Below are positions 39,252 through 54,196 of a stretch of 62,744 nt of DNA, in pieces. Made by a program: the position numbers and the translations under genes. Under the pieces are notes generated by a model that saw only the letters and a list, made by a program, of their open reading frames with translations, made no database searches and was not told the DNA's origin. Origin of the DNA: an uncultured Anaerobiospirillum sp. Its GTDB lineage: Bacteria > Pseudomonadota > Gammaproteobacteria > Enterobacterales > Succinivibrionaceae. Location of the stretch: positions 1-62,744 of the forward strand of contig CALXOW010000013.1 of NCBI GenBank assembly GCA_944390115.1, read 5' to 3'. Each line of letters opens with the position of its first letter. Position 1 is the first letter of the stretch.

Positions 39252-41192
39252 ATGTGGAATTGGCGCAAATTTACCGCGTCGCAGAGTGATGAATTAAATT
39301 GGAAGCGATCTGCGACTATGACCATCATCATGATCGGCCTGATATTAGTGGCCTCGATTCTCATGATGCGCCATATTAATGAGGCCGAGACCGAGCGCTG
39401 CTTTGAACGCCTCTACCGTGAAGCGCGCGACATTGCCAGTTTCATTGAACTCAACGCGAACAATGATCGCGAGCAACTTGAGCTTTTAGCCAATGTAATC
39501 GCCCAACACGATGATTTTCATTCGCCTCAACTGTGGCAATTGCTGCGTTCCTTTGACCGCCTGGGTATGATGTCCTATGTCGAGCTGCTCTTACCAGGCA
39601 ATAAAGTCATCACCCGTGATGGCACCATAGTTGATGCCACCGGACAGCTCTCCTTTGAGCAGGAAGTTGCCCATGGCGCTCATATCAGCGATCGTGAACA
39701 TGACCTCTTAGAGCCTAAGTCCTATGTCGTACGCCACTACGTCCCAGTAATCAAGAACGATGAAGTGGTCGCTATGCTCTACGGCTTAATCATGGTCGAA
39801 AATATGCCGGAGATAATTAATATCACCCCCTATGGTGGCAAGGGTGCACTCTACGTCTTAGATGGCCCCACCGGCGACTTATTTCTCGATACTTGGCACC
39901 CGGATAGTGTCGTCAATATGTACGCCTTAGGCAGTCGTCAGATGGCTCCAGGCTATGATGACGCAATCTTAAAGCGCGGCCTGATCACCGGCGAAAGCAA
40001 TTATGTGGTCTTTGTCTCGCGCACCATCGGTGAATATCTCTATTTCTACTACACCCCGCTTAAGATCAATGAATGGCGTATCGCGCTGTCGGTGCCGGAG
40101 AGCGTGGTCTTTGCCAGTTCGATCCTGATCGAACGGATTCTCAATATCTTCTTAGCCTTTGAGCTTGCGTGCTTTGCGCTCTACCTTATCTGGATGTTCC
40201 ATGACTTCCGCAAGGTCACCTCCGCCAAGCAAAAGCGCCTTGACACGATTAAGAATATCCAGAAGGTCGAGCACTATCTCTTCAACGCCCACGAAAAGAA
40301 AGAGAACCTCTTTATGGCGATCGAGGAACTCGGCAGCATTATGAGCTGTCAGCAGATCTCCTTCTGGGTCACAGAAAGCGGTATTAGTCAGTACTATCGC
40401 TGGGTCAAGGGTGAGCCTGCTGTTGAAGGAGCAAAGGATTCCCTCGCGCCACCAGTTAAACTTCTCCAGCACTTTAGAGCAGGTCATGACTTCTACGAGA
40501 CCTATGACCAAGCCGAAATTGCTCAAGACCATCCAGCGGCAGCTCAAGCTCAGGTCAAGAGTATCCTCGCGGTCCCGGTCATGGACGTAGTCTCAGGCCA
40601 TATGAGTGGCATCCTGGTCATCGCCAACGGCCCCAAGGATCCGCTCAACTATGCCCTGATGAAGGCGATGAGCTTCAGCTTTGGTATGTACTGCAACAAC
40701 GTCAAGAACCGCGCCGACTTACAAGAGCAAGGCGATCGCGACAGCCTCACCGGCATGCACAATCGCAATCGCTATGAGCGTGACCTCAATAAGATCTTTG
40801 CTGAGCACCAAGCTGCTCTGACCTGTATCTACATCGACGTCAATGGCCTGCGTGAAATGAACAACACCAAGGGCCACGACTTAGGCGATAAGATGCTGAG
40901 CACCGTAGCCCAAGGCATTAGCCAGTACTTCAACACTGACTATATGTACCGCGTGGGCGGCGACGAGTTTGTGCTCTTTGCCCCTGGCACCAACGAGCAG
41001 GACTTCCTCGAGCGCAGTGCTGCCTTAGCCAAGGAGCTTGAGGTCAACGACTACCACATCTCGGTGGGCATCGAAAGCCAGCACAATGTACCGTCAATTT
41101 CGCAGCTGATTAAAGCCGCCGAAAAGAAGATGTACGACCAAAAGCGTGCCTTCTACGCCACCCGCGAGCGCCGTCAAATGCACGTTGCCTAA
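39252..41192 (+). CDS. Membrane diguanylate cyclase with periplasmic sensor and GAF-like domain
   Basis: 646 aa. A first transmembrane helix (TMTIIMIGLILVASILMM), a Cache-like periplasmic domain of about 240 residues, a second helix (ILNIFLAFELACFALYLIWMF), a GAF-like region (about 340-470) and a GGDEF domain. The active-site RVGGDEF is intact (GGDEF at 569-573), as are DSLTGMHNRNRYE and YIDVNGLREMN. It should make cyclic di-GMP. The inhibitory I-site R-x-x-D is lost (FNTD precedes the active site), so product inhibition may be weak. A flagellin gene lies elsewhere in the window, so control of motility or biofilm is plausible. Confidence 0.9.
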   Translation: MWNWRKFTASQSDELNWKRSATMTIIMIGLILVASILMMRHINEAETERCFERLYREARDIASFIELNANNDREQLELLANVIAQHDDFHSPQLWQLLRSFDRLGMMSYVELLLPGNKVITRDGTIVDATGQLSFEQEVAHGAHISDREHDLLEPKSYVVRHYVPVIKNDEVVAMLYGLIMVENMPEIINITPYGGKGALYVLDGPTGDLFLDTWHPDSVVNMYALGSRQMAPGYDDAILKRGLITGESNYVVFVSRTIGEYLYFYYTPLKINEWRIALSVPESVVFASSILIERILNIFLAFELACFALYLIWMFHDFRKVTSAKQKRLDTIKNIQKVEHYLFNAHEKKENLFMAIEELGSIMSCQQISFWVTESGISQYYRWVKGEPAVEGAKDSLAPPVKLLQHFRAGHDFYETYDQAEIAQDHPAAAQAQVKSILAVPVMDVVSGHMSGILVIANGPKDPLNYALMKAMSFSFGMYCNNVKNRADLQEQGDRDSLTGMHNRNRYERDLNKIFAEHQAALTCIYIDVNGLREMNNTKGHDLGDKMLSTVAQGISQYFNTDYMYRVGGDEFVLFAPGTNEQDFLERSAALAKELEVNDYHISVGIESQHNVPSISQLIKAAEKKMYDQKRAFYATRERRQMHVA

Positions 41193-41307
41193 ACGACCAG
41201 CGTAGCTCTCACAAGCCGCATTCCGAGCTTGCACGCTATCAGCTGTGGGCTCTCTCCGGCGCGCAGCTGAGCCATAAAGGGCGCAAGGAAGCCAGCACCA
41301 AGCCGAT

Positions 41308-41326
41308 GGGTGGGTGGGTGGGAGGG
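41308..41326 (+). other. G-quadruplex motif, copy 1 (five G3 runs, 1-nt loops)
   Basis: GGGTGGGTGGGTGGGAGGG: five G3 runs with single-base loops, the most stable class of intramolecular G4. Confidence 0.9.
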
Positions 41327-41474
41327 CCACACAGAGCGTGGGCAATCATACGGGTAAAACTCGACTACTAAGCCTAATCGCGCGCCCCTACTCTGAGCTC
41401 AAAGCCAGCGCAAAGCACTCTACCGCGTGCGGCTGAGCCATAAAGGGCGCAAGGAAGCCAGCACCAAGCCTGAT

Positions 41475-41489
41475 GGGTGGGTGGGAGGG
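41475..41489 (+). other. G-quadruplex motif, copy 2
   Basis: GGGTGGGTGGGAGGG, four G3 runs with 1-nt loops, at the same place in repeat copy 2. Confidence 0.9.
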
Positions 41490-41641
41490 CCACTGCGAGC
41501 GTAGGCAATCACACGGGTAAACCCCGACTAAATCACGCGCCCCTACTCTGAGCGTAAAGCCAACGCAGAGCAAGCCCCAAGCACTCTACCGCGCGCAGCT
41601 GAGCCGCTCAAGGGCGCAAGGAAGCCAGCACTAAGCCTGAT

Positions 41642-41656
41642 GGGTGGGTGGGAGGG
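41642..41656 (+). other. G-quadruplex motif, copy 3
   Basis: GGGTGGGTGGGAGGG, identical to copy 2, 167 bases further on. Confidence 0.9.
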
Positions 41657-41818
41657 CCACACAGAGCGTGGGCAATCATACGGGTAAAACTCGACTACTA
41701 AGCCTAATCGCGCCCCCCTTACTCTGACCTCAAAACCAGCGCAGAGCAAGACCAAAAGCATTTCACCACGCGCAGCTGAGCCGCTCAAGGGCGCAAGGAA
41801 GCCAGCACCCCGCCTGAT

Positions 41819-41833
41819 GGGTGGGAGGGCGGG
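41819..41833 (+). other. G-quadruplex motif, copy 4
   Basis: GGGTGGGAGGGCGGG. The loops have changed (T, A, C) but the four G3 runs and 1-nt spacing are kept, although the surrounding repeat has drifted. Confidence 0.88.
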
Positions 41834-41952
41834 CCACACTGTGCATGGGCAGTCACACCGGTAAGCCGCGACTACGCAGCTAAACGGCGCCCGCACCGGC
41901 GGGCTGCAGGGCAGCTTGGATTCTTTTTTTATAGATACAACATAACAGGCGT

Positions 41953-41976
41953 AAAAATGGGCCCTAAGGCCCATTT
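41953..41976 (-). terminator. Terminator of the GGGtGRT operon
   Basis: AAATGGGCC (41955-41963) and GGCCCATTT (41968-41976) pair perfectly around CTAA. On the minus strand the stem is followed by TTTTTA. Confidence 0.88.
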
Positions 41977-42036
41977 GTACTACATAAGACGTGCCCTCAT
42001 GTGCCAGGACACGCCCTGTTATTAGGTATCAAACCA

Positions 42037-43041
42037 TTACTTCTTGTTTAAAGCCTGGTCAACGGCAACGGCGATAGCGACGGTAGCGCCTACCATTGGG
42101 TTGTTACCCATGCCTAAGAAGCCCATCATCTCAACGTGAGCTGGAACCGACGAGGAACCGGCGAATTGAGCGTCAGAGTGCATACGACCCATGGTGTCGG
42201 TCATGCCGTAAGAAGCAGGACCAGCGGCCATGTTGTCTGGGTGTAAGGTACGACCGGTACCACCACCAGAAGCTACCGAGAAGTACTTCTTGCCTAAAGC
42301 GTAGCACTCCTTCTTGTAGGTAGCGGCAACTGGGTGCTGGAAGCGGGTTGGGTTGGTGGAGTTACCGGTGATGGAAACGTCAACACCTTCCTTGTGCATG
42401 ATGGCAACGCCTTCACGAACGTCGTCAGCACCATAGCAGCGAACAGCAGCACGCTCACCCTTGGAGTAAGGGATCTCACGAACGATCTCTAACTCGCCCG
42501 AGTCATAGTGGAACTTGGTCTGGACATAGGTGAAGCCGTTGATACGGGAAATGATCTGAGCGGCGTCCTTGCCTAAGCCATTTAAGATAACGCGCAGTGG
42601 GGTCTTGCGGGACTTGTTGGCATTACGAACGATACCGATAGCGCCCTCAGCAGCAGCAAAGGACTCGTGGCCAGCTAAGAAAGCAAAGCACTTGGTCTCG
42701 TCGCGTAATAACATAGCACCTAAGCCTCCGTGGCCGATACCAACCTTACGATCCTCAGCAACCGAGCCTGGGATGCAGAAGGCTTGCAGGCCAATACCGA
42801 TAGCGTCAGCAGCGTCGGCAGCGGTCTTAACTTGCTTCTTGATTGCGATTGCAGCGCCAGCAACATAGGCCCAGCAAGCGTTCTCGAAAGCGATTGGCTG
42901 AATGGCCTTAACCATCTCATAAGGATCGAAGCCGTGATCAGTGCAGATCTTGCGGGCTTCGTCTAAGTCCTTAATGCCATTCTCGTTCAAAGCAGCGTTT
43001 ACTTTGTCAATGCGACGCTCGTAACTTTCAAATAAAGCCAT
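42037..43041 (-). CDS. GGGtGRT protein (conserved, function unknown)
   Basis: 334 aa, ATG start with GAGGTG eight bases upstream. It carries the family-naming GGGTGRT near residue 252 (SVASGGGTGRTLHPDNMA) and the conserved C-terminal PVHVE-like region around SSVPAHVEMMGFLGMGNNPMVG. No transmembrane segment. The family occurs in many anaerobes and is almost always next to the Fe-S scaffold-like gene, as here (15-base gap, same strand). The reaction is unknown to me; the Gly-rich motif could bind a nucleotide or cofactor. Codon use is strongly biased, suggesting high expression. Confidence 0.9.
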   Translation of the reverse strand: MALFESYERRIDKVNAALNENGIKDLDEARKICTDHGFDPYEMVKAIQPIAFENACWAYVAGAAIAIKKQVKTAADAADAIGIGLQAFCIPGSVAEDRKVGIGHGGLGAMLLRDETKCFAFLAGHESFAAAEGAIGIVRNANKSRKTPLRVILNGLGKDAAQIISRINGFTYVQTKFHYDSGELEIVREIPYSKGERAAVRCYGADDVREGVAIMHKEGVDVSITGNSTNPTRFQHPVAATYKKECYALGKKYFSVASGGGTGRTLHPDNMAAGPASYGMTDTMGRMHSDAQFAGSSSVPAHVEMMGFLGMGNNPMVGATVAIAVAVDQALNKK

Positions 43042-54169: not shown

Positions 54170-54196
54170 GGATGGATGGATGGATGGATGGATGGA
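54170..54196. repeat. Tetranucleotide microsatellite in the enolase leader
   Basis: Six full GGAT units (54170-54193) plus GGA. It lies in the 5' untranslated region predicted from the eno promoter. Such tracts change length by slipped-strand mispairing. Confidence 0.95.

Follow-up and report, generated by a model that had tools for sequence, protein, structure and literature searches.

The intergenic array at positions 41252-41905 of the DNA stretch analysed here (62,744 nucleotides of an uncultured Anaerobiospirillum sp., hereafter the window) is best explained, at about even odds (probability near 0.5), as a tandem expansion, at this site, of a member of several dispersed intergenic repeat families, with a turnover driven by the structure of the repeats themselves. 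The host clade of these families is a small group of Anaerobiospirillum-like bacteria. The reading that best fits our analysis is that of an unstable, self-amplifying intergenic DNA repeat, which would work like the BoxC/PIT repeats and would have been tandemly expanded at this site.

Architecture of the array and of its core

Tandem Repeats Finder delimited the array at 41252-41875, with a period of 177 and 3.7 copies. With each unit cut where the conserved core begins, and the last one closed at 41905 as in the initial annotation, four units were obtained over 41269-41905, showing 79-91% pairwise identity (Table 1). A 166-177-bp unit repeated four times had been described; four units are indeed present and three of them fall in that range, but the last one is the shortest, with 128 bp. 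The four or five G3 runs with single-base loops, attributed to the plus strand of every copy, were found in all four units (five in the first, four in each of the others), and copy 4 does carry altered loop bases with intact G-runs. The convergent placement was likewise confirmed, with the GGDEF cyclase gene on the left and the GGGtGRT gene on the right.

Table 1. Coordinates, in the window, of the array, its units and the neighbouring genes.
Feature	Position	Strand	Remarks
GGDEF diguanylate cyclase gene	39252..41192	+	stop codon 76 bp 5' of unit 1 as cut here
Tandem array, four units each with a potential quadruplex	41252..41905	+	
Unit 1, 166 bp	41269..41434	+	conserved core 41269-41357
Unit 1 C-block CCAAGCC	41298..41304	+	3 nt 5' of G-tract; 5/7 complementary to first G-block
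Unit 1 G-tract GGGTGGGTGGGTGGGAGGG	41308..41326	+	five G3 runs; loops T,T,T,A
Unit 2, 166 bp	41435..41600	+	conserved core 41435-41520
Unit 2 G-tract GGGTGGGTGGGAGGG	41475..41489	+	four G3 runs
Unit 3, 177 bp	41601..41777	+	conserved core 41601-41687
Unit 3 G-tract GGGTGGGTGGGAGGG	41642..41656	+	four G3 runs
Unit 4, 128 bp, final, shorter	41778..41905	+	conserved core 41778-41864
Unit 4 G-tract GGGTGGGAGGGCGGG	41819..41833	+	loops T,A,C
GGGtGRT protein gene (Pfam PF14057), convergent neighbour	42037..43041	-	

The pattern GGGNGGGNGGG was matched nine times in the window, always within the array, against a mean of 0.37 and a maximum of 3 in 100 shuffles. G4Hunter (1.5 over 25 nt) flagged only unit 1 among the four units, together with nine other places in the window, so that this score does not single out the array. 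A protein-coding repeat was discarded, the reading frames across the array being judged chance frames, as was a terminator, with one terminator-like site in the array region against 1.8 in shuffles. As to a phage or plasmid origin, no match was retrieved among 50,697 phage and 72,556 plasmid records, and the IMG/VR contigs contained no exact match to the pattern.

From left to right, the core comprises a first conserved arm, a short C-block, a loop of 3-4 nt, four or five G3 tracts with single-base loops between them, and a second conserved arm. Complementarity between flanks and G-tract was evaluated in 69 of 70 sites from three genomes (see below), leaving out one without flank. In 51 of these 69 sites, the best-pairing partner of the first G-block is found 3-4 nt before the 5' end of the tract; complementarity to the adjoining G-block averages 5.3 of 7 in the 5' flank, 2.8 in the 3' flank and 4.2 in shuffles, the 5' flank exceeding the 3' one in 67 sites. 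A hairpin and a quadruplex are thus possible as alternatives on the G-rich strand. In the window copies the C-block pairs only weakly (4 or 5 of 7), with the best copies elsewhere reaching 6 of 7.

Dispersed relatives in Anaerobiospirillum-like genomes

The core of the array, of approximately 85 bp, recurs elsewhere in the window's own Anaerobiospirillum-like genome (G000). The genome scan for the same unit, proposed with the initial annotation and performed with one unit as query, retrieved the other three units; contigs C101 and C9 gave six more core copies, and contig C66 a looser relative. The G3N1 x4 pattern yielded 39 matches in this genome, reduced to 36 distinct sites by removal of one overlap and of two sites with G in a loop. 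Judged by eye from their flanks, these sites fall into at least four families: family I, the window type (10 sites); family II, related to it, with a unit near 72 bp (7 sites); family III, in which a GCGCGGC/GCCGCGC hairpin precedes the G-tract (14 sites); and family IV, with the G-tract within the loop of a long stem (2 sites). Three more sites stand outside these families. The stem of family III is 7 bp long, and a paired C-G swap is common to the orthologous copies C102:29263 and G003:C61:17877, the latter in the sister genome (G003).

The G3N1 x4 pattern is absent from 47 of the 57 genomes of the taxonomic family. Besides the 39 matches in G000, 47 were counted in G003 (19 within runs of G and one more with G in a loop), 8 in G009 (one with G loops) and from 1 to 7 in each of the other seven genomes with matches. 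A G4 with CCAC directly after it was counted 18 times in G000, 11 times in G003 and never in nine other genomes of the genus, and the same pattern read backwards is found in none of the genomes of the genus examined. A single exact match to the pattern was obtained among the GTDB contigs, a collection that may omit the window's own genome, and it belongs to an uncultured Anaerobiospirillum MAG.

None of the 71 matches in G000, G003 and G009, corresponding to 70 distinct sites, lies within a gene, as predicted by a simple codon-usage script. Both strands carry sites, and the spacers concerned are tandem, convergent and, in a few cases, divergent, hence neither a role in transcripts nor one tied to convergent genes is general, and the transcription barrier between convergent genes originally suggested for the array is not borne out. 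In G009, one of the seven sites (C34) sits between stretches matching both sides of a G000 site; two more, according to alignment coordinates, are near the same genes as G000 sites, in a different spacer. These numbers are too small to carry an argument.

Contig ends tend to coincide with the repeats: 10 of 45 site clusters, grouped by hand, are at most 400 bp from an end (L121, L122, L124, L127, L174, L176, L178, L179, L184 and L186), with 1.4 expected. Runs of G stand at the start of some contigs of G003, and one contig end is a sequence that we take to be an Illumina adapter. The contig breaks at these sites could be explained by the repeats alone or by polymerase stops.

Constraint on the G-runs and loss of whole tracts

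The evolution of the G-tract was followed by taking, for each G000 element, the best flank match in its G003 counterpart locus, with the G-tract masked. Counterparts were chosen by BLAST from the loci that had been fetched; since most of those in G003 had been fetched for their tract, the comparison is biased towards retention. Elements less than 45 nt from a locus end were left out, and 15 of 17 G000 loci were used; of the two others, C66 was later traced to a tract-less G003 spacer and C91 stayed untraced. In the reverse direction, G003:C47 was later traced to a tract-less G000 spacer and G003:C35 stayed untraced. The sample is made of fragmented metagenome assemblies, essentially of two main genomes, and elements within a locus are not independent.

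Where tracts aligned without gaps (27 of 33 comparisons), substitutions affect 5 of 324 bases in the G-runs, 311 of 1589 in the flanks and 24 of 81 in the loops. Changes in the G-runs are therefore about 13 times rarer than in the flanks and about 19 times rarer than in the loops, indicating that the G-runs are constrained, a pattern expected of selection on a fold. All 12 G are retained in 22 of 33 G000-to-G003 comparisons (4.0 expected at the flank rate) and in 17 of 24 in the reverse direction (2.8 expected), and, locus by locus, conservation is higher in the G-runs than in the flanks 11 times out of 15 (p 0.026). Over all 57 comparisons, mean identity is 0.845 for G-runs, 0.776 for flanks and 0.637 for loops. 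The first of these values exceeds only slightly those of flank G (0.806) and flank C (0.841), because losses come as blocks; a stretch within the left arm reaches 0.879. A tract is thus usually either kept whole or lost as a block. An intact G-tract was present in G003 at 14 of the 16 G000 loci with a BLAST-identified counterpart; all but two of these G003 loci (C31 and C20) had been fetched for their tract.

One such loss is at the window site itself. In G003 the same spacer holds a single core, against four here, with matching flanks and no G-tract; the sequence GCCATCC-TTAT-GGATGGGC can form a short hairpin in its place. Counting copies, proposed at the outset for strains, gives 4 in G000 and 1 in G003 at this site. 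The selection on the motif put forward in the initial annotation holds insofar as G-runs are constrained and loops drift, but not at this spacer, where the flanks were kept and the G-runs lost. A lack of G4 formation in vitro, together with G-runs destroyed within conserved flanks, had been named there as refuting evidence, and G003 supplies the second of these two halves.

Similar losses were revealed by models built on the flanks alone. For family I, the masked model, built from 14 of the 16 copies that it clearly found (E 1e-4 or better), detected these 16 across 11 genomes of the genus, leaving 12 weaker matches (E 0.04 to 7) out of the count; 4 of the 16 are without an intact tract. All 10 copies in G000 are tract-intact, while the 6 in G003 comprise 2 intact, 3 with one broken run and 1 without tract. 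For family III, 20 of the 30 copies with a tract went into the masked model, and among the 59 of its 66 matches that were examined an intact tract was found in 30, namely in 30 of 36 above 45 bits and in 0 of 23 below, one of these 23 carrying a broken tract. In both searches, at most 150 candidates per genome were scored. The array on C66 has neither a counterpart nor a G-tract in the matching G003 spacer. Behind the secA gene, G003:C47 (L171) carries two quadruplex units 74 bp apart, between copies of a 27-bp segment, and in G000:C95 (L247) this flanking segment occurs once and both units are missing. The two secA spacers form a natural absent/present pair. Altogether, the tract-less copies of families I and III and the C66 and secA spacers indicate that the quadruplex is a common but optional part of these elements.

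Hairpin repeats of the family III type without G-tract were seen in several clusters (L220-L228, on G000 contigs C48, C105, C10, C8, C35 and C25). As tract-less copies are also clustered (e.g. in G000:C48), the G-tract is dispensable for the multiplication of the hairpin family, which counts against the preferred reading. Counterpart spacers with and without the tract provide natural pairs for testing effects on replication, expression and the copy number of the element itself, and the difference between the two species permits a direct comparison bearing on whether such repeats in bacteria have a function or are simply tolerated.

The strong constraint on the G-runs, their retention at 14 of 16 loci (with the sampling given above) and the restriction to spacers would all suit a DNA element selected by the host in cis, such as a barrier to transcription or replication, or a site for a nucleoid or G4-binding protein. 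Against it stand the variable strand and gene arrangement, the G-tract lost by G003 at the window site, the tract-less counterparts of the C66 spacer in G003 and of the G003:C47 spacer in G000, and the many genomes of the taxonomic family lacking any site; we regard this explanation as unlikely, though deserving serious weight. Somewhat less probable still is a putative quadruplex cassette that would have spread onto several unrelated hairpin families and be held by selection on the fold alone, perhaps being recognised by a host protein. If so, some twenty spacers per genome would share one structural mark in different sequence backgrounds.

It is also rather doubtful that the array is a neutral relic, that is a set of ordinary repeats whose G-tracts only seem conserved through slippage of GGGN units and exchange between copies. 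The similarity between units is indeed mosaic (91% for copies 1 and 3, 79% for copies 1 and 4), the loops vary as shifted GGGN units would, and block losses are frequent; however, the 13-fold rarity of G-run substitutions is measured against the flanks of the same elements, and exchange between copies would homogenise these flanks as well.

Proposed turnover and comparison with known repeats

According to the preferred reading of a structure-driven repeat, the G-rich strand could, upon strand separation, adopt one of two folds: a hairpin, in which the C-block pairs with the first G-block, and a parallel quadruplex. The folded structure might stall or misalign replication, and units could then be duplicated or deleted through slippage and recombination. 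The G-runs would persist by driving this turnover, with selection acting on the element itself and not on any service to the neighbouring genes. Repeats of the (G3T)4 type are reported to be mutation-prone in E. coli (PMC7023247). For BoxC-type motifs, frequent deletion or mutation has been described, and deletions reported for their inverted-repeat pairs may leave a hairpin (PMC4666352). For the present repeats, no enzyme able to mobilise them was identified.

Interspersed intergenic quadruplex repeats are already known as a general kind, and the present array is a variant of it; the statement in the initial annotation that no bacterial element of this form had been described was too strong, since interspersed intergenic quadruplex and triplex repeats have been published. 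The closest likeness is with the BoxC/PIT/TMECO triplex repeats of E. coli and other bacteria, which are interspersed and intergenic, occur on both strands, have a C-block followed by G-blocks, vary between related genomes and, for inverted-repeat pairs, are reported to undergo deletions that may leave a hairpin, with no preference for a gene class reported (PMC4666352). The sites described here are equally intergenic, interspersed and on both strands. The search rule for those elements, however, asks for a C-block that pairs with the G-block after it in a stem of 6-15 nt, with one mismatch only when longer than 7 (PMC4666352), and the 4 or 5 of 7 paired positions of the window copies, or the 6 of 7 of the best copies elsewhere, fall short of it. 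Neither did the copies, compared by eye, match the TMECO consensus (C-block, G-block, G-block with GAG centres). Failing both the pairing rule and the consensus, the window copies are not filed as members. They further differ in having four G3 runs with one-base loops and tandem units, and in that several families with differing flanks share the G-tract.

The GGGAATC-type repeats of Xanthomonas and Nostoc are likewise quadruplex-capable, enriched in non-coding DNA and mostly located at the same gene pairs in two species, with variable length and sequence, but they are simple heptamers (PMC4692102), while here the G-tract is embedded in a core of about 85 bp or in a hairpin unit. The recurrent potential quadruplexes of Methanomicrobiaceae are interspersed, intergenic, placed beside a C-rich tract and capable of hairpin, triplex and quadruplex alternatives; in these archaea the C-tract is 3' (PMC8044849), whereas here it is 5'. 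We found no paper in the literature joining Succinivibrionaceae and G-quadruplex.

A role at the RNA level, in which the array would form the 3' UTR of the cyclase mRNA and act as an RNA quadruplex, is very improbable. The first unit, as cut here, does lie 76 bp past the cyclase stop codon and on the coding strand, but elsewhere the G-rich strand is at some sites antisense to the neighbouring genes, and all 20 shuffles of the array RNA gave a better fold than the array itself, quadruplexes not being counted. No Rfam family matched the array when positions 41100-42050 were searched by cmscan with E up to 5, the one weak match (E 4.6) lying outside it, and at the gathering score 14 of the fetched loci returned two tRNAs and nothing else; the repeat RNA proposed in the initial annotation is thus not indicated.

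Mobilisation as REP/BIME elements by a RAYT-type transposase would agree with the interspersed, intergenic, clustered and hairpin-bearing nature of the repeats, the 7-bp stem of family III included, but is hardly credible, as G009 has quadruplex repeats and no match to the Y1 transposase family (PF01797), and no quadruplex site is listed on the contig of the sole full-length Y1 gene of G000. No RAYT association was found in G009 or at this G000 gene, and the quadruplex tract is a difference from those palindromic repeats. Apart from the full-length match, which neighbours a second ORF, PF01797 has two fragmentary matches in G000, and G003 has matches as well. The Y1 gene stands back to back with a 444-aa ORF (L129, 1486-3226), presumably the TnpA and TnpB of an IS200/IS605-type element.

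Elsewhere in the window, a (GGAT)6.8 microsatellite adjoined by a run of A was observed at 54170-54196. It precedes the start codon of the enolase gene by about 60 bp, faces a flagellin gene and is possibly a length-variable promoter element.
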